From assembly GCF_024498175.1 (NCBI RefSeq), contig NZ_CP101823.1, positions 1,178,001-1,242,000 of the forward strand: a stretch of 64,000 nt of DNA, in the 5' to 3' direction. The DNA is from Haloplanus salinarum (GTDB taxonomy: Archaea > Halobacteriota > Halobacteria > Halobacteriales > Haloferacaceae). The position numbers were made by a program, and so were the translations under genes. A model generated the notes under the pieces. It made no database searches, was not told the DNA's origin, and worked only from the letters and a program-made list of their open reading frames with translations. This document shows, piece by piece, positions 14,773-33,576 of this stretch. The number at the start of each line of letters is the position of its first letter. Position 1 is the first letter of the stretch.

Positions 14773-16449
14773 CTACCCGATCCCAGTTTCCTTCTTCAAC
14801 AGCGTCAGCGTGTTGTCCGCTGTAATCAGCGGTGAGTGCTCATACTCGCCGGTCAACTCAACCTGCACGAGCAGATCGACCGCTCGCCAGATAGAGTACA
14901 GCAGACACGCAAACGCGAAGTAGAAGAATCGAAGCCCGAAATCCTTCGACGTCGTCGCTGCCATGAACCGTTTGATCGACCTGTACCCACTCTCGATCTC
15001 CCAGCGATAGCCATACTCCGTGAGGTGCCCACTCCCGCAATTCGTCATGAACACCGAGTACTGCCGGTGATCGTCGTGCTCGGAGTCTTCATTCCGGCGG
15101 TAGACCAGCGTCGTTTCGTGCCACTCGTTCTTGCCCAGATGGAGCTTCCGGTCGGTTTCATACCGGTCTTGGTCCCGCTGGAGTAATCGCTTGGCTTGGG
15201 CTTTCTCGCTGGTCTGCATCCGCTTCGGCACGACATACGACAAGCCACGCTGGCTAAGCATCTCCAGGACGTGCTGACTATCGAACTCCCGGTCCATCAG
15301 CACGTTATCGACGTGGACGAGCTCTTCAGCCGAATCCAGCAAATCCCCGACGATCTCCTTACGTGACTCGCCTTTCCGTACCGGGCGGGCATCAAGCACG
15401 AGTGGGATAGCGTTGCCGACCAACTGGACTGTCGCCCATTGGTAGGCGTACTCGTCGGTCTTCTCCTTCGTCCCGATGATTTCGTCTTCGTGGCCCGTTC
15501 TATCACCGGTGAAGGGGTTGGCCTCGGTGATATCGATGGCGATGATTCCGGCTCGGAAGAACTCCTCTGTCTCCTCGACTTCGCTCAGGAGCGTGTTGAC
15601 GGCCTGTCGGTACATCTCGCGAGTCTCTGATACCGAGAGATTACGAATCTGCTCGCGATGGGCGTGACCTAACGGCGTCCGCTCTCGAGTTGACTCGTAG
15701 GTGAAGCTACGAGCACCTTCGTTCGCAGCCAGCCGCTCACGAAGTCCGAGATACGTCTGCAGGTCCCAGTACGCGTTCTCGTGGATCTCACAGCCCTCAC
15801 CTCGATCCAGCGAAAACGCCGGGAAAAGGACGCGACTGACGTGGTCGGTGACTTTCTCTGCCTGCTCCAACGTAGTTTGATCATCCGGGTCTGACTCACC
15901 AGACTCGTCCCCGTGGTATCGGAGCTTTCGTGTCGGTTCACGCGGAGTCTCGACACCCGCATTCTGGGCTTTGATGAGGATCGTTCGAGCGGCTGTCTCC
16001 ACTGTCTCTCGGAGGTCAGGGATGAACCGCTCGTGCCAGCTTCGCCACAGTGTCGACTGGTCCGGGATCGTCTCGAAACCCAGTTGCTCACAGAGTTCAG
16101 GACGGTTCTTTAGGTAGTCGACGAGTGCTGTTTCGTGCTCCCAGCTGTGGAGTTCTTTCAGTACGAACACCCGAAAGAGGGTGTCCATCTGGTAGCGGGT
16201 CGGCCCCGCATACCGGTCGTGGGCGCTGAACCGGAAGTAGGCCAAGGGGAGTGCACAGACGAACCCCTCGACGGAGTCGTGACTTTCATGTTCGAACCAC
16301 GTCTCTGAGACTGTCCGGATATCGGATTCCAGTCCGGCGAGTGACGTTCGATCGTACAGGGGTGTCGAATTATACGCCGGCCACTCACCGTATTGTCGTT
16401 GGGCGATCCGTCGAAAGACGGTTCGGCGAGACACAGGAGTCGAACACAC
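14773..16449 (-). CDS. IS4-family DDE transposase, intact
   Basis: 558 residues from GTG 16449. Catalytic residues are visible: first Asp in GIIAIDITEANPFTGD (about residue 297), second Asp in VLMDREFDS (about 374), and the IS4 signature YGYRWEIESGYRSIK, which fits Y-2-R-3-E-6-K exactly and carries the catalytic Glu. The N-terminal ~250 residues carry helical DNA-binding sequence. The gene is uninterrupted, so the element could be active. A second copy at 62817-64000, on the other strand, is closely similar over its first ~390 residues but not identical. Named ISH group not determined. Confidence 0.85.
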   Translation of the reverse strand: MCSTPVSRRTVFRRIAQRQYGEWPAYNSTPLYDRTSLAGLESDIRTVSETWFEHESHDSVEGFVCALPLAYFRFSAHDRYAGPTRYQMDTLFRVFVLKELHSWEHETALVDYLKNRPELCEQLGFETIPDQSTLWRSWHERFIPDLRETVETAARTILIKAQNAGVETPREPTRKLRYHGDESGESDPDDQTTLEQAEKVTDHVSRVLFPAFSLDRGEGCEIHENAYWDLQTYLGLRERLAANEGARSFTYESTRERTPLGHAHREQIRNLSVSETREMYRQAVNTLLSEVEETEEFFRAGIIAIDITEANPFTGDRTGHEDEIIGTKEKTDEYAYQWATVQLVGNAIPLVLDARPVRKGESRKEIVGDLLDSAEELVHVDNVLMDREFDSQHVLEMLSQRGLSYVVPKRMQTSEKAQAKRLLQRDQDRYETDRKLHLGKNEWHETTLVYRRNEDSEHDDHRQYSVFMTNCGSGHLTEYGYRWEIESGYRSIKRFMAATTSKDFGLRFFYFAFACLLYSIWRAVDLLVQVELTGEYEHSPLITADNTLTLLKKETGIG

Positions 16450-16740: not shown

Positions 16741-18078
16741 GTGCAGTCGTCCACACTCACCCAAATCTTGTCGTTCCGCTTAGACATCCACACGGGGAGT
16801 GGCGACGACCTGCAAACGGGCTGTCTTGAGGCCCGCCGCATCCGCAACGAAACCAACCGCCTCGACCGACAGGGCTGGAACTGGGATGACATCAAACCGG
16901 CCGTCGTTGACAACGCCGATCACGTCAACAACACTAGCCAACTCATCGTTGACAAGGCACTCGGTGAAATCGAGACCCACCACGACAACAAAGACGACGA
17001 CTGGGGCCGTCCATACCCATACATCGACGGGGTGTACCCGATGGTGATGAACCACGGCGAAGGCTACCGTCTGTTCCCCGAAGACCACGGGACGGTTCGA
17101 TTCCGTATCACTGCCACGAGAGGCACGCACGTCAAAGGCGAACTTCGTGGCAGTCCCGACCACTTCGACCGCCTCAGAACTGCGTTCACCGATGAGGAGT
17201 GGCGGGTTGGAACGGCTGAAGTCGTCCACAAGCACGATGAGTGGCGACTCCACCTCACAGTTACACACGAGACGCATCGAGTCGCCAGCAAGCACGATGC
17301 AGACACGATCGTCGGTGTGGATGTGAACGAGGACTGCATCGCACTCGCTGCGATGAGTCGGAGTGGTTCGATGAAAGACTCCGTGGTGTTCGAGTACCCG
17401 TCGGTGAAAGAACAGCGTCACGAGTTTTTCACCAAGCGCAAGCGGATGCAGAAAGCCAACCAGACCGCGTTTGAGACGGTCGTTCAGACTGAGGAACGCG
17501 ACTACGTGCATGACTGCCTGCACAAAGTCTCACGGAGAGTAGTCGAATGGGTCTCGCAATTCACCGACCCAGTGATCGTTTTTGAAGACCTCAAAGACAT
17601 GCGAGACTCCATCGACTACGGTACGCGAATGAACCGTCGCCTCCACTCGCTGCCGTTCGCTACACTCCAAGACATGGTGTCGTACAAGGCTGCGTGGGAG
17701 GGGATTCCGTCGGATGAGGTTGATCCTGAGTACACGAGTCAGCGATGCCCGCGAACGGAGTGCCAGCACACGGAACGGGCGAATCGCCAGAACAAGCGAT
17801 TCAAATGCCAGCAGTGTGGGTTCCAAGACCACGCTGATAGGAAGGCGGCGGTGTGCGTGGTGCAGAACTGGTTGGAACGAGAAACTGGAAATGTGCCGTC
17901 TCTCGAAACCCTTCCGCGCGTTCGGAAGGTGAGACGGGCGGCATCGGGCCGTGGTGGAGCGGCCGACTCTCACGGACCCATATCGGGTTCGGGTGTTACC
18001 GACGACGGTATGTCGGCGCGACCAGCGATGGGAGCGCGAGAGGAATTAAAGTCCGTTGCGTCAGCAATGCAGGACTAA
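16741..18078 (+). CDS. tnpB: TnpB RNA-guided nuclease of an IS200/IS605-type element
   Basis: 445 residues from GTG. The RuvC-like catalytic residues are present: Asp in IVGVDVNEDCIALAA (about residue 200), Glu in VIVFEDLKDMRD (about 282) and Asp in DHADRKAAVCV (about 365). A zinc ribbon (CPRTEC and CQQC) lies between the last two. The usual DxNAA reads DRKAA here, an uncommon substitution of Asn by Lys. A ~70-residue tail follows the nuclease core. TnpB uses a right-end-derived omega RNA as guide to cut DNA, which helps the element persist. An AT-rich TATA-like stretch ending near 16714 lies about 30 nt upstream of the start. Confidence 0.88.
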   Translation: MQSSTLTQILSFRLDIHTGSGDDLQTGCLEARRIRNETNRLDRQGWNWDDIKPAVVDNADHVNNTSQLIVDKALGEIETHHDNKDDDWGRPYPYIDGVYPMVMNHGEGYRLFPEDHGTVRFRITATRGTHVKGELRGSPDHFDRLRTAFTDEEWRVGTAEVVHKHDEWRLHLTVTHETHRVASKHDADTIVGVDVNEDCIALAAMSRSGSMKDSVVFEYPSVKEQRHEFFTKRKRMQKANQTAFETVVQTEERDYVHDCLHKVSRRVVEWVSQFTDPVIVFEDLKDMRDSIDYGTRMNRRLHSLPFATLQDMVSYKAAWEGIPSDEVDPEYTSQRCPRTECQHTERANRQNKRFKCQQCGFQDHADRKAAVCVVQNWLERETGNVPSLETLPRVRKVRRAASGRGGAADSHGPISGSGVTDDGMSARPAMGAREELKSVASAMQD

Positions 18079-19184: not shown

Positions 19185-20410
19185 TCACTCAAGCGAGGAA
19201 TCGACCGACGCCTGAGGGAGATGCAATACAACACGTGTTCCACGCGGCGAGTTGTTCTCGAGTGTGACTTCGCCCCCGAACAGCGACCCAGTCCAGTACA
19301 CAATCCACAGTCCGAGGCCAGTCCCATGTTGCATCGGGGTTTCCACCCCTGTTTCGATCGTTTTTTGCTCATGATCTGGGATGCTCGGTCCGTTATCCGC
19401 AATCTCGATGTCGATCCACTGGCCGGTTCGATCGCCAGTTGATTGCCTGGTCGTAACCGTCGCCTCGGGAGTGGGCTGGTCGTTGTGGGTGATCGCGTCT
19501 TCTAGGAGTTCTGTGAGCGCTATTTTCAACCGACTATCTGCTTTAGCGTGAACGGAATCCGATTCGCCGGTCGTGAGTGTGGCGTCAGGATACGTGTCGG
19601 AAAATTCGTCGACGACTTCGGTCAGAAGCTGAGTCACGTCGCAGGCAGTCTCGGTTGGTGATCCAGTGCCGAACAGTGAACGCACAGTCCCGGCTTGATC
19701 ACTCATACGGATTGCGCTAACTGTTTACCGCGACGACCGCCCGACTGCGGGCGGTCGACGCGGAAATGACCTAGCGCAATCCGTATCAGACTTGACAGTG
19801 CCGCTGCCAGTTCTTCGATCGCTCTCGCGTGCGGTCGGAGCTCTTCGTCGTCGAGCGCATCTCGGAGCATGGGCGCGTTGCCTTCGATGACGTTCATTCC
19901 GTTCCGGAGATTGTGGCGCAACACGCGATTGAGAACGTCGAGTTGTTGTTCGCGCAACTGCTGGTTCGTCACGTCGGATTCGATCGTGACGAAATGCGTG
20001 ATCTTTCCTGTGTCGTTCGGTATCGGCGTGATCGTCTGGTCGACATGATATAATTCCCCATTTTTCCGGCGATTCACGAGATGGGCATCCCACTGGTCGC
20101 CTGCGAGAATCGTTTCCCACATCCGGTCGTAGAACACTTCGTCCTGTTTGCCTGATTTAAGAATGCGGGGTGTTCGACCAACAGCTTCCGAACGTGTATA
20201 GCCAGACCGGGCTTCGAACATCGGATTCACGTACTCTATCGTGCCCTCTCTGTCGGTAATGAACACGGCATGTCCCGCGTTCTCGACAGCCTTCCTGAAC
20301 AGCTGCAAGTCCTGCTCGTGTTCTTTACGCTCAGAGATGTCTTCCTGAAACCCGACGTAATTCGTGACGGTTCCAGTGTCGTCTCTCACCGGGGCGATGC
20401 TGACTGTCGA
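19185..20410 (-). pseudogene. Sensor histidine kinase remnant, split by a palindromic element
   Basis: Reading from 20410 down: the end of a PAS domain (VSIAPVRDDTGTVTNYVGFQ), a second PAS domain with the LOV-like GRTPRILKSGKQDEVFYD, then an H box VLNRVLRHNLRNGMNVIEG. At 19789 an 88-bp palindromic element interrupts the frame. The ATPase domain resumes at 19701 with SDQAGTVRSLFGTG and later IADNGPSIPDHE and HGTGLGLWIV. Excising the element with one base joins the two halves in frame. The 5' end is also lost and replaced by unrelated sequence upstream of about 20410. The ATPase half can start at an ATG (19706) partly supplied by the element edge. Confidence 0.8.
19702..19789 (-). repeat. 88-bp palindromic element, copy 1 (inside a histidine kinase gene)
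   Basis: Read on the minus strand it runs CTG-ATACGGATTGCGCTA ... TAGCGCAATCCGTAT-GAG with 15-bp perfect terminal inverted repeats, a middle stem (TTTCCGCG / CGCGGTAAA) and a central GACCGCCC / GGGCGGTC hairpin. The core is 82 bp. Copies 2-4 share the architecture and the CTG/GAG edges but differ in stem sequence with compensating changes. Confidence 0.85.
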
Positions 20411-20678
20411 GTTTGTACCAGTTCTTCTCCAGCTTCCAGAACGGGAGGGTGTCGGTGACGAGGTCAAGCTCGCCAACGGCTTCGGCTGGATCGAAGCCCT
20501 GGTTCAGGTAGGCCTGAAGTTGCTCCGAGATGGATGCCATCGGCCACATCTTTGCGTGTAGCAGCTCGAAACCAAGTATCAGGAGTGCCTTCGAGTTATC
20601 AGGAAACTCTGCCGCCAGCTCGGGATTCGACGAAAAGTCGAGATCGATAGATCCAAACTCCTGTAGAGGATTCGGCAC
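20331..20678 (-). CDS. Unrecognised ORF, chimeric at its 3' end
   Basis: 115 codons from GTG 20678. A TATA box (TATTTATAA, 20706-20714) sits 28 nt upstream, as expected for a leaderless transcript. The first ~90 residues (MPNPLQEFGSIDLDFSS to LPFWKLEKNWYKL) are acidic, soluble and not recognised. The last ~25 residues are out-of-frame kinase sequence. An unknown gene therefore appears to have been joined to the truncated histidine kinase at about 20405. Confidence 0.35.
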   Translation of the reverse strand: MPNPLQEFGSIDLDFSSNPELAAEFPDNSKALLILGFELLHAKMWPMASISEQLQAYLNQGFDPAEAVGELDLVTDTLPFWKLEKNWYKLDSQHRPGERRHWNRHELRRVSGRHL

Positions 20679-20721: not shown

Positions 20722-20838
20722 TCACTTATCATCCATCCCGACTTCACCCTCCGCACCGTAGTACCGCGATAGGCTCCGGTATTGGGCTTCTTCCTGGTCG
20801 TCGCTGGCATCGTACTCGTCGGCACAACCTATTCGTTA
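20722..20838 (-). pseudogene. C-terminal fragment of an acidic protein
   Basis: A 38-codon frame closes with CADEYDASDDQEEAQYRSLS then RYYGAEGEVGMDDK and a stop. The composition is that of a real haloarchaeal protein tail, but the frame has a stop just upstream and no start. It lies 18 bp after the CapB stop and may be what remains of a third capsule gene or of an unrelated neighbour. Confidence 0.3.
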
Positions 20839-20856: not shown

Positions 20857-22053
20857 CTACGTCGGTTTGATAGATTCGGGCGCTTCCTGTTCCTGAGTAC
20901 GTACAACCTCCTCGAACTCACGCATGAACTCATCGACGGTGTTTCCCATGATGACGACAGGCTCGCCCTCTGCAAGAAGATCGGTCAGCACAGTCTCGGC
21001 GTCGCTTCCTTTGTCGTGTCGGATGACCGGCAGCTCGGTATTCTCAGCGAACGCACGCGTATTGGCCCCACCAACGTGGGCTTCATTGACGTGGCCTTGG
21101 TCGTAGAGGAGGTCAACGTACTCTGCGAACGAGGCGGTTCGACCCCGCCGGTCTCGGCGGAGATAGACGAACGGGAGTATCTGTTCATCTTCCGAAACGA
21201 GTGCCTGACGGACCATCTCCGTGCTCTCGACGTCGTTCACTTGTGCTGCGTTGAACACACGACCGTCAGGAAGTCGGGTCCACTCCGGCTGAATCGCGTC
21301 CAAAAACGCTTCGAGTTCACCGTCAGGGAGCGGCGATTCGTCGAGAAACGACAGAACCGCGTCGATCGCGTGCGCAGTCTCTGCCCCGATCATCCCCTCG
21401 TGCCGGTCGGGAATCACGACCTGCTCGATGGTGCCCCCTCGGCGTTCGATCTCCTCTCGCATGTAGTCGTGGAGAACAGGGTGTTGTTCCCCACTAATGA
21501 CGTGTGTCCCGGCGGAGACCGACCGCGCGAATGATCGGGCGATATTGGTCCGCGTCTTGCCAAGCGTGTCATTGTGATCCTGCCGGACGTTGGTGAGAAT
21601 GACGATGTCCGGATTGATCAGTTGCTGATTGATAAGCCGCGTCGTGTACTCGGTGATGCCCTGATTTTCGAAGATGCCGATATCCTCGGCGGCATAGGCA
21701 TCGAGTTCCGGAGCGAACTCCCCGATTACGCTGATGTTCTCGTACAGCGTCGTCCGAGGGCCCCGACGTTCGATGGGGTGAACCTCGCCGTTGTGGATGA
21801 GTGTCGGATGGTTCCCGGTGATCTTCGTCAGGGTATCGTAGCCGCGGCGATTGAACACGTCGTCGAGGCGGCGAGTCGTCGATGTCTTGCCACGGCTCCC
21901 CGCGACGGCAATGCGAGTGTCCAGGCGTCGGAGTGCCTTGCGGTGACGGAACCCTCGTGTTAACTCTTTAATGATACCGGTCAGACTCGGCTTCCCGACC
22001 TCGATAGACCGTGGTCCGTCCCGCCACTCGTATTCGGCACCGACCATGAACAT
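20857..22053 (-). CDS. capB: CapB/PgsB-type Mur-ligase fold enzyme (poly-gamma-glutamate synthase)
   Basis: 398 residues from ATG 22053 (MFMVGAEYEW); the frame is open further upstream but that part is not conserved-looking. The P-loop IAVAGSRGKTSTTRRL lies at about residues 47-62, followed by TKITGNHPTLIHNG, ENQGITEYTTRLINQQ and VILTNVRQDHNDTLGKT. These stretches match the CapB/PgsB group of ATP-dependent amide ligases, which polymerise glutamate at the membrane. The context is a CapC/PgsC membrane protein upstream. The overlap of about 70 nt with the preceding gene leaves the exact start open; GTG/ATG alternatives lie a few codons downstream. No CapA/PgsA is present. Confidence 0.8.
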   Translation of the reverse strand: MFMVGAEYEWRDGPRSIEVGKPSLTGIIKELTRGFRHRKALRRLDTRIAVAGSRGKTSTTRRLDDVFNRRGYDTLTKITGNHPTLIHNGEVHPIERRGPRTTLYENISVIGEFAPELDAYAAEDIGIFENQGITEYTTRLINQQLINPDIVILTNVRQDHNDTLGKTRTNIARSFARSVSAGTHVISGEQHPVLHDYMREEIERRGGTIEQVVIPDRHEGMIGAETAHAIDAVLSFLDESPLPDGELEAFLDAIQPEWTRLPDGRVFNAAQVNDVESTEMVRQALVSEDEQILPFVYLRRDRRGRTASFAEYVDLLYDQGHVNEAHVGGANTRAFAENTELPVIRHDKGSDAETVLTDLLAEGEPVVIMGNTVDEFMREFEEVVRTQEQEAPESIKPT

Positions 22054-22445
22054 GGGGAGGGCCCCGCGGCCCGCTCCAGGAACCGATCCAACGCATGCCT
22101 GGCATCGCTTTCGGTCGGGAACCGGTCTGCGCTGTTGGCGAGGGTGCGCTCGGGTGTCTGCAATTGCCACACCCAATTGTTCCGATCCTGTGGAAGGTCG
22201 CCAGTAGGCGTCGGGTCTTCTCTGACGATCGTTGCCGGGTCGCTGATATCCTCGCTTTCGAACGCCTCTTCATCACCGGTGAGCGAGGCAACTGCTCCTC
22301 GAACTTGGTCGACAGCCTGTCGGGCCTCTCGTGATGTATCGTAGTGATGGCCGCCGGTCGCTACCACGCGTTCCTGAACGCGAAGTCGCCATGACCACCC
22401 AAACCCACGTCCGTATATCTCGTAGGCAGTCGTGTACGTGCTCAT
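21981..22445 (-). CDS. Small repeat protein (YegP/DUF1508-like) inside the capsule cluster
   Basis: 154 residues. Two similar units are visible: GFGWSWRLRVQERVVATGGH ending in SREARQAVDQV, and NNWVWQLQTPERTLANSADR ending in ESDARHALDRF. Each has the W-x-L/W-R, A-x-S/G and (E/D)AR pattern of DUF1508/YegP beta-alpha repeats, whose function is unknown. Its ATG overlaps the capC stop by four bases (ATGA), so it belongs to the capC-capB operon. Its last ~30 codons overlap the start of capB and look non-conserved; the gene may in fact end or shift frame there. Confidence 0.6.
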   Translation of the reverse strand: MSTYTTAYEIYGRGFGWSWRLRVQERVVATGGHHYDTSREARQAVDQVRGAVASLTGDEEAFESEDISDPATIVREDPTPTGDLPQDRNNWVWQLQTPERTLANSADRFPTESDARHALDRFLERAAGPSPCSWSVPNTSGGTDHGLSRSGSRV

Positions 22446-23605
22446 GAGTCACCCTCCGAAAGAACGGACGCAGACAGTACCTCAGTCTCATCAGGTTGGG
22501 CGACCGCATACCGGCGTCCGAGTCCCAGACCTACCAACAGAAGGAGTATACCTGTCAGTATCACAGGCAGCGTGAGTTCTTGTGGGATACCCTTCGGTTC
22601 CGGTGTGGCGAACACCCGTGCGACGAGCAACACTGGAACGAACACAACGGCCTGGAGTGGTAGTACCAGCCGCCGCTCGAATGGCCCTGTCACGTGAGCG
22701 TTATATGCAATTATGCCACCGAGGAACGCGACAAAAAAGGCAGACAATCCACGATCAATCGGGAACAACAGTGTGAGTGGAACTGCCATGAGAACCGCAA
22801 ACGCGATAGTGGTTCCAAGGAGCACCCTGCCATACCGCAGTGTTGCGTGGTTCGCTGCCTGGACAAAGCCAAACGCAAGGACGAACAAAACCACGTACAT
22901 CACGATGAGCCAGTAGTTCGTGAGGGCGTAGACTGCCAACAGGACAGCCGCGATGATGCCGACCCGGACGCCGAATTGCGCTCTGATGCGCTCGGATATA
23001 ATCAGACCAATTATAAAGAGACCAGCCACGACTTCCCTCGATATGACGACCGCTTCTGTTGGGATATCAACGACTGCATTATTATACACCGCGACGTCAG
23101 CGCTCGCTGCGAACAACACCGGTGGCGTCACCGTCCCATATCGGGCAGCGATTCCGGGAGAGACCAGTACAAAACCGAGAGCGAACAATGCCGTGAACAG
23201 GCCGATAGTTGCGAGTAAATCGTTCCGTCGAAACTCCGGCTTGATACTATGAAAGTTGTACGCCGCTAACCCCGGAAGAATGCTGCCGAGTAAGACGATG
23301 AGATCTGCACCAAACCCAACCTCTATGAGCCCAAGAAGCGTTACCAACGGGACTGACGTTCCAATGATCAATGCGGCGACAAATTCGCCTCGACCGTAGA
23401 TCAGGGTCCGCTGTCGAAGATACCAGAGGCCGATGTACGCTGCGATAGTACTGAGGACGAACACAGGCAACATCAGGACGTTCTTGAGCGTGTACACCGC
23501 GAGTACCGGCACGGTGATTGATCCACCAAGACGGTACCCCGTAAACTGCGTGGTCAGTGCTACGCCGAGTATCCCAACAACGGCCAACAGCGTAGCAACC
23601 CACAT
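22442..23605 (-). CDS. capC: CapC/PgsC-type integral membrane protein, double length
   Basis: 387 residues, nearly all hydrophobic (about ten membrane segments). Bacterial PgsC/CapC is about 150 residues. Here the family signature appears twice: QFTGYRLGGSITVPVLAVYT with IYGRGEFVAALIIGTSVPL in the first half, and RAQFGVRVGIIAAVLLAVYA with RYGRVLLGTTIAFAVLMAVP in the second. The protein is therefore a tandem duplication. With CapB it forms the membrane synthase that makes and exports poly-gamma-glutamate. It is the first gene of the cluster. Start at ATG 23605 opens with a membrane helix. Confidence 0.75.
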   Translation of the reverse strand: MWVATLLAVVGILGVALTTQFTGYRLGGSITVPVLAVYTLKNVLMLPVFVLSTIAAYIGLWYLRQRTLIYGRGEFVAALIIGTSVPLVTLLGLIEVGFGADLIVLLGSILPGLAAYNFHSIKPEFRRNDLLATIGLFTALFALGFVLVSPGIAARYGTVTPPVLFAASADVAVYNNAVVDIPTEAVVISREVVAGLFIIGLIISERIRAQFGVRVGIIAAVLLAVYALTNYWLIVMYVVLFVLAFGFVQAANHATLRYGRVLLGTTIAFAVLMAVPLTLLFPIDRGLSAFFVAFLGGIIAYNAHVTGPFERRLVLPLQAVVFVPVLLVARVFATPEPKGIPQELTLPVILTGILLLLVGLGLGRRYAVAQPDETEVLSASVLSEGDS

Positions 23606-23666: not shown

Positions 23667-23751
23667 CTCATACTGTCGGCTGTAACATCTTGAAACTAAT
23701 TCGCCACCGGGGTGGCGAATAGTTTTAGGTACTTACAGCCGAGAGTATCAG
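23667..23751 (-). repeat. Palindromic element, copy 4 (85 bp)
   Basis: Minus-strand reading: CTG-ATACTCTCGGCTGTAA ... TTACAGCCGACAGTAT-GAG, with a central TTCGCCACC / GGTGGCGAA hairpin and the same three-stem plan as copies 1-3, but almost entirely different stem sequence. Its left edge supplies the TGA stop of the response regulator gene at 23748-24128. Confidence 0.75.
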
Positions 23752-24128
23752 ACTGCGTCGAGAACGACCTCGATTCGGCCCACAAGTTCGGCTTCGGAAA
23801 AGGGCTTTGCCACAAAATCGTCAGCACCGGCGTCGAGTGCTTGCACGATATCTTCCTCCCGGTTGCGGGACGTCAACATGACAACTGGCAGATCCACGAG
23901 TGCGTCGTGATCCCGGATACGTTCGAGGACGGAAAGGCCATCGAGTTCGGGCATCATTACGTCTAACACCACGAGATCTGGTGGATCGCTGGTCCGTGAT
24001 CCGAGATGCTCCCAACACGCATCACCATCTGTGAACGCCACCACGTCCCATCCGTTGTCAGTCAGGTTGAATTCGACGGCTTCCCGGGTCGTCTCATCGT
24101 CCTCCGCAATGACTATTTCGGCGGTCAT
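23748..24128 (-). CDS. Single-domain response regulator (receiver)
   Basis: 126 residues, one REC domain. The acidic pair (AEDDE, about residues 8-12), the phospho-acceptor Asp in LVVLDVMMPELDG (about 55), the Thr/Ser switch in VVMLTSRN and the Lys in VAKPFSEAE (about 109) are all present. There is no output domain, so it acts as a phospho-relay or on a protein partner. Its start is 48 bp after the histidine kinase stop, so the two are probably a cognate pair on one transcript. The stop codon is formed by the edge of a palindromic element, and a few native C-terminal residues may be missing. Confidence 0.9.
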   Translation of the reverse strand: MTAEIVIAEDDETTREAVEFNLTDNGWDVVAFTDGDACWEHLGSRTSDPPDLVVLDVMMPELDGLSVLERIRDHDALVDLPVVMLTSRNREEDIVQALDAGADDFVAKPFSEAELVGRIEVVLDAV

Positions 24129-24176: not shown

Positions 24177-26210
24177 TCATTCGCTCCGTTCACCAGTTCG
24201 GATTTCGATGCGTGCTCCCTGATCTGTGGCGGGGACTAAGAGGTCCCACCCGTGTGCTTCCACGACATCGATAACGCTCATGAGTCCGATTCCAATCCCC
24301 GACATCTCGTCCGTGTCTCCGAGTGCTTCGATCTCCGTCCGTTGCTTCTCGGAAAACCCTGGCCCGTCATCGGCGACGTAGAACCCCCCCTCGTCAGCGA
24401 GGGGGCCAACTTCCACGGTAACGTCGTCGCCGCCGTGTTCGACGCTGTTGCGGAAGAGATTGCCGAACAGTTGCAGCAGTCGTGTCTCATCGGCCTGTAT
24501 CTCACCGAGCGGGTCGTCTGCGGACAAGGACGCTTTCGGGGCGTCGGTGTATGACCACGCCTCCTCCACGATTGGTTGTAATTGGTGGGTGCGTATGTTG
24601 ATTGCCTGGCGATCACCGCGGGCGATCATTAGCAACTCGTCGATGAGTTCCTCCATTCGGTCCAGGGACTGTTCGACGCGCTCGAAATGCTGTGACTCGT
24701 TCGTTTTGCGGGCGATTTCGAGAAAGCCGACCGCTCCCGTCATTGGGTTTCGGAGGTCGTGTGCCACGACGTCGGCAAACTCTTCGAGGCGGTCGTTCTG
24801 TCGCTGGAGTGCTTCACCACGCTCGGCTAGCTGTTCTTCGCGCTTGACTGCGGTTATAGCCTCCGTGACCAACGCTTCAAGCAGTCGGAGGCTTTCGATG
24901 TCAATCTCGTCGAACGCACGTGGCTCGGTCGCAGAACTCGTGATGATGCCCTGATTCCCGCAGGGAACGTGGACCTCTGACCGCAATGGCGTCTCCGGAT
25001 TGTAGGTTTCTGGTTGTTCGGTCAGGTCCTCGTAGTACCGGATTTTGCCACTATCGAAACTCTCCCAAATGAGTGCGTCACCTCGCTCGAACGTCGGGGC
25101 CTCCCCAACGACCCGTACTGCTTCGTCTGTTTCGGCCACCGCGCGTAACACGTCTTCGGTGGCATCGTACTCCCAAAACGCACTCACCGGGAGATTGAGC
25201 AACTCGACGACCATCTCCATCGTGATCTGTGCGACGTCCGTCGTCGTTTCAGCCGTCAGCAACCGCTGTGATACTTCGTGCAGACTTTCCAGGCGATCTT
25301 CGAACCGCTGCCGTTCGAGTTCGTACCCGGCCCACTGTCCAAGTAGCTTGATCACCTCCCGTTCGCCGGCGTTGAATTCCCGGTCACGGTCGTGTGGGGC
25401 CGCAAAGCAGAACGTCCCATAGAGGTTCTCTCCGACCATGACCTTCGTTCCGATATAGCAGCCTAAGTCGAACAGTTCGTACGCCGAGTCGTCTTCGCCC
25501 AACTCCGCTCGTGCGTCCTGCATACCAACTAGGTCGTCGCTTTGGATGGTTTTCCGGCAGTACGACTGTTCCAGCGGTGCGGTTTCGTCTGGCTGGAGCA
25601 GTGTATGATCGCCAACAGCGTGTACAATCTCTTGTGTGTCTTCCTCTATTTTCGACAGGAACCCAAAGGGCAGATCCAGGTACTTACACCCAATAGAGAG
25701 GATGCGCTCGGCTTTTTGTTCGAACGTGAGAGCGTCCTCTGCACCAACTTGATAGAGTTTGGCCAGCACCTCCTGTTTTTGTTCTGCCGCCCGGGCCCTT
25801 CGCTCGCGCTCTGTCACATCCCGGACCACGCCGACGATATCGTCAGTGCCGTCGTCCCGGATATGTTTCGAGACGCGAACGTCTACCATCTGTTCGGTTT
25901 CCTGACCAATTTCGAAGGTCAGGATTTCATCCTGGATTTCTCCGTCGGCAATGGAGTTGATGGTCGTAACGAATCGCTCAAACTCGGCGGATTCAACCAG
26001 TCCTGATTCAACCAGCGTGTCGAACGTGTTGCCAACCAGTTCGTTCCGCTCACGTCCAGTCAACGAGCAAAGCGAGTCGTTGACGTAGGTGATGGTACCG
26101 TCCAGATTGACGACGAACACACCGTCCCGCACCGCTTCGATGATGGATCTATAGGGTCTGGTGCTCTCTTCGTAATCCCCCGAAGCACCATTATGGGGGC
26201 CTGTGTCCAT
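24177..26210 (-). CDS. Soluble sensor histidine kinase (PAS-GAF-GAF-HisKA-HATPase)
   Basis: 677 residues. PAS at about 15-135 (IIEAVRDGVFVVNLDGTITY), GAF at about 165-305 (LYGTFCFAAPHDRDREF), a second GAF-like region at about 310-465, the H box FADVVAHDLRNPMTGAVGF at about 485-503, N box QLFGNLFRNSVEHGG at about 590-604 and G1 YVADDGPGFSEK at about 618-629. No membrane helix is seen, so it senses a cytoplasmic signal. The first GAF holds several Cys/His residues (KYLDLPFG, SYCRKT, LGCYIG). It is followed by a receiver protein on the same strand. Full length and apparently intact. Confidence 0.9.
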   Translation of the reverse strand: MDTGPHNGASGDYEESTRPYRSIIEAVRDGVFVVNLDGTITYVNDSLCSLTGRERNELVGNTFDTLVESGLVESAEFERFVTTINSIADGEIQDEILTFEIGQETEQMVDVRVSKHIRDDGTDDIVGVVRDVTERERRARAAEQKQEVLAKLYQVGAEDALTFEQKAERILSIGCKYLDLPFGFLSKIEEDTQEIVHAVGDHTLLQPDETAPLEQSYCRKTIQSDDLVGMQDARAELGEDDSAYELFDLGCYIGTKVMVGENLYGTFCFAAPHDRDREFNAGEREVIKLLGQWAGYELERQRFEDRLESLHEVSQRLLTAETTTDVAQITMEMVVELLNLPVSAFWEYDATEDVLRAVAETDEAVRVVGEAPTFERGDALIWESFDSGKIRYYEDLTEQPETYNPETPLRSEVHVPCGNQGIITSSATEPRAFDEIDIESLRLLEALVTEAITAVKREEQLAERGEALQRQNDRLEEFADVVAHDLRNPMTGAVGFLEIARKTNESQHFERVEQSLDRMEELIDELLMIARGDRQAINIRTHQLQPIVEEAWSYTDAPKASLSADDPLGEIQADETRLLQLFGNLFRNSVEHGGDDVTVEVGPLADEGGFYVADDGPGFSEKQRTEIEALGDTDEMSGIGIGLMSVIDVVEAHGWDLLVPATDQGARIEIRTGERSE

Positions 26211-31782: not shown

Positions 31783-33576
31783 TCAACGACGCCGATCATA
31801 GTAGTATTCTCCATTGGCTTTTTGTTCTCGGTCAAGTTGGCTGCCAGGCTTGTTGACTCGGGGACGTCCCGTGCGCTCATCGCGACGGAACGTAATCTCA
31901 AGCGACGAGAGAAACGTGTTCATCCCATCTCGTATCGATTGTGGTGCCTTCGCGTGCCCACGTTCTCCTGGGGTTCCTTCGAACACGACTAAGCGATCGG
32001 CGAATCGATCAATTACGAAGAGATCGTGATCAACAACAAAAATCGGTTGATCAATTCGTTTGCTAAATTGATGAATCTGGTCAGCGAGGGACACACGCCG
32101 GTCAACGTCCAAAAACGCAGACGGTTCGTCGATGAGATACAGATCGGCATCGCGAGCGAGGCACAGTGCGACACCGACTCGCTGTAGTTCGCCGCCGGAG
32201 AGGGAATCGAGATGTCGGTCGTACAGCACCTCGAGATCGAACGGGTCTCGGATCCATGTTTTGAAGCGCCGGGAGTGGATGTCAGTAACCGCTGCGAACT
32301 GTTCGCGCACTGTCGCCTGGCTATCCGGCGCTATGTACTGTGGTTTGTACGAGACAGAAAGAGTACCCGGAACAGCTCCGCTATCAGGTTCAATACCCCC
32401 TGCGAGTAGTTTCACGAACGTCGTCTTTCCGAGAGCGTTCTCTCCGACGATACCGATCGATTCACTCGCGTAAATCTGGCCTGAATCGACTGACAACGCG
32501 AATCCGGTGAATTCCTTCTGTAGTTCCGGGTATTCGAAGACTGGGTCCTTGTTGGGTACCCCACGCTCGCTGGCTGAAGGGAACTCGATAGCATCGCCGC
32601 GGATCTGAACGTTCTCTTCGGCCAGGTATCCATCCAGAAACTGATTGATACCTGCACGAACCGAGAGTCGCTGGGAGGCGACTCCGAAGCCACCCGGGGC
32701 CCCATACAGGATATGGACCCCGTCCGAGAGCAGGTCAAGCATCGCCAGATCGTGTTCGATGACGATCGCTGACGCATCGGTATCCTGAATACGTTCGTGG
32801 ATTACGTGCGAAACAGTCGACCGCTGTTTGGCGTCTAGGAAGGACGACGGTTCGTCGAACAAGTAGAGGTCTGCATCGCTCAACAGCGTCGTTGCGATGG
32901 CGACACGCTGTCGTTCACCACCGGAGAGGTCACCTAGCGACCGGCCACTGATTGATTAGAGGCCAAGTGTATCGATGAGGTCATCGGAGTCGGTCGACCG
33001 CGAGAGCAGTCGTTGTCGAACCGTCTCGTCGTCCGTATCGGACAGTGAGTCGACTCGCTGGCTTTTGTAGGCCGTTGTAACCGTTCCGTCACGGAGCCGT
33101 TCGAGATGCGTCTGGAGAGTTGTCCCCCGAAACGATTCGACCGCCCTGTCCCAGTCGATCCGGTCTTGTGTTCCGAAGTTCGGAACCAACTCACCGGCCA
33201 AGATACGCAAGGCCGTGGTCTTCCCGATTCCGTTCCGGCCGAGGAGGCCGATAACCGCTCCATCGTCCGGAGCCGGGAGGTTATACAGTCGAAATCCGTT
33301 TTCGGCGTACTGGTGAACGAGCTGGCCTGTTTCGGACGGAAGCGGGACGATTCGAATCGCGTCGTTGGGAATTTTCTTTTCGATGAGCTTGTGCTCTCGC
33401 ATCACCTTGCTCTCGTCGATGTGGAGTTCGCCATCATCGGTGATGTGAAAGCCCTCGTGTCCGGACCGATTCAACGGATCGTACTTGACTGCGATGTTCC
33501 GTACTTCGTCGGTGACTTCGTCTTGATCGATGATTGCGACGTATTCTTCGCTCTGTGAATCGGTGGGGGTGTTCAT
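31783..33576 (-). pseudogene. ABCE1/RLI-like twin ABC ATPase lacking all Fe-S cysteines, with one in-frame stop
   Basis: From ATG 33576: an N-terminal ~75 residues aligned to the ABCE1 Fe-S domain but without any cysteine (canonical RLI has eight), then IPNDAIRIVPLP, YAENGFRLYNLPAPDDGAV and Walker A GRNGIGKTTALRILAGE. After DTLGL a TAA (33 codons before the second ORF start) interrupts; reading on gives SISGRSLGDLSGGERQRVAI and then LYLFDEPSSFLDAKQR. The second half has Walker A GENALGKTTFVKLLAGG, LSGGELQRVGVALCLARDAD and LYLIDEPSAFLDVDRR. Everything but the TAA at 32956-32958 is in frame. RLI splits ribosomes for recycling; this Cys-free paralogue overlaps the upstream TPP-enzyme gene by four bases. 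Loss may be recent. Confidence 0.85.

Follow-up and report, generated by a model that had tools for sequence, protein, structure and literature searches.

A tandem YegP-like domain fused to CapB beside a doubled CapC in archaeal CapBC loci, with a frame-split copy in Haloplanus salinarum

Introduction

The PgsBCA/CapBCA system of Bacillus is the closest well-described relative of a capC–capB locus that we analyzed in Haloplanus salinarum. The locus lies in a stretch of 64,000 nucleotides (nt) of contig NZ_CP101823.1 (positions 1,178,001 to 1,242,000), hereafter the window, whose own numbering gives all window coordinates below. Both systems pair a CapB of the Mur-ligase/FolC type with an adjoining CapC membrane protein, and CapA accompanies them in some archaeal loci. 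PMC6029982 reports that an N-terminal transmembrane helix is predicted in most of the PgsB proteins compared, and that L-rich poly-gamma-glutamate (PGA) reached 26 g/L in B. subtilis with pgsBC alone, pgsA being left out. The discussion of the same paper notes that earlier reports conflict, earlier work having found pgsA essential.

In haloarchaea, capC and capB stand together, as here, in Haloquadratum walsbyi (PMC1544339) and on plasmid pHLAC01 of Halorubrum lacusprofundi. The H. walsbyi CapBCA has been published, and the passages of PMC1544339 in hand mention neither a fusion nor a doubling. A partial text of PMC4497714 reports PgsB but not PgsC in archaea, and an excerpt of PMC5751247 tabulates the PGA of Natrialba aegyptiaca as all-L. 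Among the open-licence PubMed Central (PMC) matches listed, several of the listings being capped, we found no report of a YegP-CapB fusion or of a doubled archaeal CapC, and no paper that brings DUF1508 together with glutamate and ligase.

The archaeal loci differ from the Bacillus model in several respects. Their CapC is doubled, their gene order is C-B and not B-C, CapA is often absent, and CapB lacks the N-terminal hydrophobic helix. A tandem YegP-like domain (YegP2) occupies that end of CapB in a fused subtype. We read the window locus, with a probability of roughly 0.8, as an archaeal synthetase of the gamma-polyglutamate type in which a one-base deletion splits the gene for the ligase, the break being an inactivation, a working fission or a sequence error.

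Results

The small ORF between capC and capB belongs to the CapB N-terminus

The locus is read on the reverse strand (−). A small open reading frame (ORF) of 154 amino acids (aa; 21981..22445, −) follows capC, with 4 nt of overlap between its ATG and the stop of capC. The CapB ligase core comes after it, with 398 aa counted from the first in-frame ATG at 22053 (20857..22053, −). A sequence-only reading of the window had taken the small ORF as a separate gene translationally coupled between capC and capB. The overlap of start and stop is confirmed; the separate coupled gene did not survive comparison with relatives. Three orthologues, 91-92% identical to the window in the core, are uninterrupted genes of 526-527 aa. 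In DNA alignments the window lacks one base at about 22,051-22,067 (22051..22067, −), at the boundary of YegP2 and the ligase core, and the base is present in 10/10 relatives. The genuinely homologous part of the small ORF is its first 128 aa (22062..22445, −), which form the N-terminus of CapB in relatives. Past residue ~128 the ORF runs out of frame across the CapB start, so that its last ~26 residues are CapB sequence in the wrong frame; separate tblastn pieces had hinted at this. These alignments identify the small ORF as the CapB N-terminal domain, severed from the ligase by a one-base deletion. Programmed frameshifting was considered and rejected, the out-of-frame arrangement occurring in 0/10 relatives.

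The sequence-only reading had described the small protein as two-repeat and DUF1508-like, and this description held. The ORF contains two YegP/DUF1508-type repeats, which align to one another (97.4%, E 1.4e-11). Taken alone, the window ORF scored 14.1 bits against DUF1508 (PF07411; gathering score 22) and 23 bits against HVO_2922 (E 5.9e-5; cut-off 90), below threshold in both cases. The family signal is clearer. Among 23 YegP2 family members, 20 matched HVO_2922 (best 1.4e-10) and 15 matched DUF1508 (best 3.7e-8) at E 0.01 or better, and the family profile matched the solved UPF0339 proteins 6q2z (E 1.4e-4) and 3bid (E 0.006). YegP2 shares with the HVO_2922/YegP/UPF0339 proteins the beta-beta-beta-alpha repeat and a W.WRL...A type signature. 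The solved UPF0339 proteins are small and stand-alone (60 and 64 residues), whereas YegP2 is a pair of repeats joined to an amide ligase.

We also examined an AlphaFold2 (AF2) model of the intact relative L033 (L numbers denote loci and G numbers genomes in our survey). The model shows beta-beta-beta-alpha twice, with a whole-model mean predicted local distance difference test (pLDDT) of 71.7 and a predicted template modelling (pTM) score of 0.58. Residue 124 is the end of the last YegP2 helix; residues 128-132 form a short strand, and the pLDDT of residues 133-143 and 149-160 is below 50. The window break sits just past the end of the helix, at the strand and before the low-pLDDT stretch. A fold search with the intact relative returned FolC structures (Z 21.6); the structural alignment rows cover mainly residues 142-520, and the placing of YegP2 therefore relies on secondary structure and sequence profiles.

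The CapB core itself has an intact P-loop (GSRGKTST) and exceeds the Mur_ligase_M (PF08245) gathering score (31.4 versus 24 bits). It is the single CapB match of a profile search of the genome, which is one 3.45-Mb contig. The pairing of CapC and CapB of the poly-gamma-glutamate type, as first proposed from the sequence, is thus present.

We compared nine close loci. Six of them (L032, L033, L034, L102, L108 and L109) are intact and three are broken, each differently. The window is broken by its one frameshift. The broken L103, on a Salinigranum marinum plasmid, has an IS1595-family transposase gene between capC and capB and a frameshift near residue 420; L104, on a plasmid of Halobellus sp. 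DFY28, has frameshifts near residues 24 and 257. The ratio 3/9 gives no rate of breakage, because the searches favour intact copies. The ratio of nonsynonymous to synonymous substitution rates (dN/dS) on either side of the break was 0.08-0.13 in pairs that include the window and 0.08-0.18 in other pairs; for the window against L102 it was 0.084 and 0.077 on the two sides. Since substitutions on both sides stay constrained, the break is recent, tolerated or not real. Between L102 and L033 the synonymous rate dS was 0.105 in capC and 0.25-0.39 in CapB and YegP2, a contrast that suggests recombination and a capC segment with its own history.

The YegP2-CapB fusion recurs in haloarchaea and in some methanogens

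We searched 292 genomes of the class and obtained a CapB match in 68, eight of which held fragments or partial matches only. Leaving out fragments and several near-copies, we compared 60 haloarchaeal neighbourhoods. The YegP-like domain was present in 25 of them, and in 25/25 it shared one frame with CapB. The three-gene order that the sequence-only reading had proposed to check at other haloarchaeal loci was therefore not found. No YegP2 match lay away from a capB in the 60 neighbourhoods; the one distant match, in L048, belongs to its second capB. The capC gene preceded the fused CapB in 25/25 loci.

The fused CapB measured 516-562 aa in 23/25 loci. The two others, L057 (683 aa) and L049 (817 aa), are YegP2-CapB proteins with long extra C-terminal regions. 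The fused start codon overlapped the capC stop by 4 nt in 24 loci and by 1 nt in L054, a placement that is partly by construction because the start nearest the capC stop was chosen. In RefSeq annotation, the overlap is 4 nt for both Salarchaeum and Halobaculum and 1 nt for H. lacusprofundi, while the CapB of Halorientalis marina starts 69 nt past the capC stop.

Searching the window's whole phylum, we also found the fusion in methanogens. YegP2-CapB stood beside a full doubled CapC in 7/7 methanogen loci with a full-length CapC, namely L131 (Methanohalophilus) and L170-L175 (genomes in family f13, that of G730). Other methanogen loci (L134, L145, L146) were partial or had no detectable YegP2 domain; in L176 a shorter CapC stood with a CapB that was not fused, and in L177 CapC was broken and CapB absent. 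The fusion is apparently an undescribed domain combination common to salt-loving archaea and some methanogens.

A CapB tree of 85 rows was built after dropping 21 duplicates and four short rows (L104, L144, L145, L147), with the outgroup L150 on a very long branch. On this tree, where "fused" takes in the broken window and L103 and "unfused" partial rows such as L122, L134 and L146, the fused label requires six changes, at least four of them demanded by supported branches. YegP2 has therefore been lost or gained several times.

CapC is a tandem duplication

The capC gene (22442..23605, −) encodes 387 aa comprising two tandem CapC units and one extra C-terminal helix. PF14102 matched it in two stretches (E 3.8e-24; 85.8 bits versus a gathering score of 27). 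Aligned to each other, the two halves prove homologous, with a probability of 99.7% (E 5e-26; 13% in a column-reversed control). In the AF2 model (pLDDT 87.6), the helix pattern is repeated and the additional C-terminal helix is seen. The tandem duplication suspected from the sequence is therefore borne out. A structure search with CapC gave no PDB match at E 0.001 or better, which says nothing for a new fold.

PF14102 matched 42/42 aligned CapC proteins, the window copy included. Among the 60 haloarchaeal loci, 58 had a CapC match spanning at least 360 of the 391 profile positions; the two others are L077, at a contig end, and L070, whose 396-aa CapC lies beyond the distance filter. In L075, CapC is split across two frames. 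In the window's phylum, CapC occupied frames of 382-483 aa in 19 of the 21 genomes over cut-off, the exceptions being G747 (201 aa) and G782 (137 aa, one stop). By contrast, all over-cut-off CapC (12/12) in the phylum to which a Bacteroidales genome belongs were in single-length frames of 144-185 aa. Sub-threshold PF14102 matches in frames of 415-434 aa also occurred there (G308:C14, G329:C65 and G426:C104), and these are possible diverged long relatives of CapC.

The doubling as a purely archaeal trait was rejected, since two bacterial plasmids carry a doubled CapC. These are from Corynebacterium glyciniphilum (L154) and Chroococcidiopsis thermalis (L155). Their CapC proteins (333-334 aa) match the archaeal N-half profile twice and are paired with a bacterial-type PgsB having the N-terminal hydrophobic segment; no CapA is annotated nearby. 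The pgsB and doubled capC lie at 3468-7290 in L154, where a gamma-glutamyltransferase adjoins the locus, and at 3447-5691 in L155.

Archaeal CapB lacks the N-terminal hydrophobic segment

The unfused CapB measured 379-451 aa in 31 of the 35 unfused loci, a range into which the 398-aa window core falls. We scored the best 19-residue hydropathy at the N-terminus. All four bacterial CapB sampled had a hydrophobic segment (1.69-3.05), and 0/58 archaeal CapB did. The 25 fused proteins had a median of 0.87 and a highest value of 1.36; the 33 unfused proteins scored, which leave out L084 and L085, had a median of 0.09 and a highest value of 0.87.

CapA is often absent, and its replacement by YegP2 is not supported

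The sequence-only reading had noted that CapA is missing, and we confirm this for the whole genome: nowhere in its 3.45 Mb does a match to the CapA family PF09587 reach E 0.001. Its premise that bacteria need CapA is too strict, given the PgsBC result in B. subtilis (PMC6029982, in the passages cited above). Among the 68 genomes with a CapB match, 43 had PF09587 (42 over cut-off) and 25 did not. CapA lay within 6 kb of six of the 25 fused loci (L033, L048, L050, L054, L057 and L058) and of four unfused loci (L076, L080, L084 and L085), and all ten coincide with PF09587 places of the genome search. On pHLAC01 of H. lacusprofundi (L054) the order is capA-capC-capB(fused)-histidine kinase; this plasmid has the same fused CapB with CapA, while the window copy is frameshifted and without CapA. 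The absence of CapA beside archaeal CapBC is ordinary.

The reading had also suggested that the small protein could be a haloarchaeal replacement part. It is a conserved archaeal part, but a replacement of CapA is not supported: CapA adjoins 6/25 fused loci, and 31/35 unfused loci have neither YegP2 nor a CapA within 6 kb. CapA without a YegP-like gene, an arrangement which that reading counted against its idea, occurs at the four unfused loci just named and, by annotated gene lengths, on pHH126 of Haloarcula hispanica.

Hydrolase-like genes adjoin mainly the unfused loci

PF05908 matched in 24 of the 68 genomes with a CapB match. Using a profile built from genes adjoining capB, we find a PGA-hydrolase-like family within 5 kb of CapB in 20/60 loci, 19 of the 35 unfused (L062-L070, L072-L078 and L080-L082; that of L075 is a short remnant) and one of the 25 fused (L049). 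A PF05908 match of the genome search falls, by coordinates, inside 15 of these 20 neighbourhoods. The unfused CapCB of Natronorubrum bangense (L136), for example, shares the doubled CapC and the CapB core with the window and differs in having no YegP2 and in having an adjoining hydrolase-like gene. The hydrolase neighbours support gamma-PGA as the product of the wider CapBC family. The association of YegP2 presence with hydrolase absence is confounded by descent.

Neighbouring genes and mobile elements

A single-domain response regulator (23748..24128, −; PF00072, E 3.5e-29) lies upstream of capC, and a PAS/GAF histidine kinase (24177..26210, −) upstream of the regulator; the kinase is syntenic in L032, L033, L034 and L102. 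Such a regulator stands directly upstream of capC in the window, in 13/25 fused loci and in 0/35 unfused ones. Because it adjoins capC, part of the fused clade may be under direct two-component control. The regulator as the reason for YegP2 was rejected, since in 12/25 fused loci it is not directly upstream of capC. In the fused methanogen loci, a receiver-domain match occurs only ~6 kb upstream in four of the seven and is absent from the other three.

Downstream of CapB is a start-less open stretch (20725..20835, −), which is probably the orphan C-terminal fragment that the sequence-only reading placed after CapB. It has no credible CapA-like match. A CapA remnant 3' of CapB was rejected, none of ten CapA-like proteins matching the whole window better than E 0.1. 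Four close relatives (L032, L102, L103, L104) carry the stretch in the same frame, and its matches among the 292 genomes were confined to the genome it comes from and G279, with a weak one (E 0.01) in G021.

Close to the broken capB, at 19185-20476 (−), a PAS-PAS-HisKA ORF (19703-20476) overlaps a HATPase_c ORF (19185-19706) by 4 nt in a different frame. The pair looks like one histidine kinase split by a frameshift. A 115-aa ORF at 20331-20678 (−) has no Pfam match. Over its first ~90 residues it is 94-96% identical to sequences downstream of capB in plasmids of Halorientalis marina and Halobellus sp. DFY28, and the DNA homology around it ends at ~20404 in both, which suggests an edge of recombination or insertion. 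Further along, an ORF at 14773-16434 clusters with transposase-like genes beside capB in L037-L040, and an ORF at 16741-18078 is IS200/IS605 TnpB-like (both named by sequence), so the cap locus is near mobile elements. An ORF at 31783-32883 (−) begins inside a putative ABC ATPase (RLI/ABCE-like by eye) and is possibly truncated.

Discussion

A YegP2-CapB fusion beside a doubled CapC is a conserved new architecture of the CapBC synthetase. When intact, it consists of a gene for a doubled CapC, a membrane protein of two CapC units, and of a single YegP2-CapB gene that comes next, its start overlapping the capC stop. By analogy with the biochemistry of PgsB, FolC and Mur ligases, the CapB core would activate a gamma-carboxyl group with ATP and add glutamate. 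The doubled CapC may act as a pseudo-dimer that receives or exports the chain, and YegP2 may dock the soluble ligase on CapC or regulate it. Docking or regulation is our leading guess for YegP2, held at less than even confidence, because YegP2 occupies the end that carries a hydrophobic helix in the bacterial PgsB sampled. The enzyme of this strain may have been recently inactivated, may work as two chains, or may lack the base only in the sequence.

Several points weigh against our reading. The window CapB matches the PgsB equivalog TIGR04012 (E 1.7e-25) at 89.6 bits, below the cut-off of 222.7, and CapC is below the cut-off of the PgsC equivalog TIGR04011 (16.2 versus 96.45 bits); because both fall short, the product may differ from gamma-PGA. 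The evidence on product is weakest for the fused subtype, since a hydrolase-like gene adjoins one fused locus only. Moreover, in all five hydrolase-like members tested, PF05908 was the best Pfam model but sub-threshold (15.8-20.1 versus 22 bits), and "hydrolase" is thus a secure name for only part of the family. The hydropathy gap between archaeal (1.36) and bacterial (1.69) CapB is narrow, and the start codons of unfused CapB come from our own gene caller. None of our computed results shows a contact of YegP2 with CapC, and no experiment on a fused member was found in the literature. The lone frameshift, as it stands here, is indistinguishable from a sequencing error.

A sequencing or assembly error, with an intact fusion in the living strain, is a serious but somewhat unlikely account. 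It would fit a single base in a short G/C run, with the rest of both frames intact and conserved; the neighbouring histidine kinase that also looks frame-split, the independent lesions in two close relatives and the transposase genes nearby fit real decay. We find it doubtful, more so than an error, that the frameshift produced two working proteins, YegP2 and a CapB of unfused length re-initiated at the ATG at 22053. The break does fall at a domain boundary, after the last YegP2 helix and before the low-confidence residues 133-160, the remaining CapB is as long as natural unfused CapB, and dN/dS is low on both sides. Yet it severs the short predicted strand from YegP2 and lies at the boundary, not inside the linker; the low dN/dS mostly reflects the time preceding the break; and no other such split copy occurs among the loci examined. 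The 73-nt overlap would require re-initiation upstream of the stop, and no strong Shine-Dalgarno sequence is evident by eye.

As to function, the fused clade might make another gamma- or alpha-linked peptide or conjugate instead of poly-gamma-glutamate. We consider this improbable. The sub-threshold equivalog scores and the rarity of hydrolase-like genes at fused loci (1/25, against 19/35 unfused loci, counting the L075 remnant) point that way, but TIGR04012 was matched by 20/20 fused members with the best E-value of the models compared, CapC always precedes the fused CapB, and CapA is sometimes present. The idea that a separate YegP-like protein takes the place of CapA in haloarchaeal synthetases is very hard to sustain. 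This genome and seven others with an intact fusion (G040, G061, G112, G159, G189, G205 and G244) have no PF09587 match. Nevertheless, wherever the domain occurs in the 60 neighbourhoods it is fused to CapB, six of these loci have CapA alongside, and most unfused loci (31/35) have neither the domain nor a CapA nearby.

Returning to the split synthetase copy, we tentatively extend our reading of it to a wider proposal, to which we give rather less than even odds. Archaea may have a polyglutamate synthetase class of their own, in which a doubled CapC forms a membrane pseudo-dimer and a soluble, helix-less CapB works without CapA, tethered or gated, in lineages of Halobacteria and Methanosarcinaceae, by the tandem YegP module to which it is fused. 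On this view, YegP/DUF1508 would have a docking or sensing role in the synthesis of peptide polymers.

The comparison with relatives corrects a tempting reading, that of a small coupled accessory gene, to one of a conserved domain fusion. The fusion gives a concrete working context to the YegP-like domain, which Pfam still calls a "domain of unknown function". A further suggestion is that the construction of the archaeal CapBC synthetase departs from the Bacillus model, with a doubled CapC, a ligase without the N-terminal helix, and CapA often absent.

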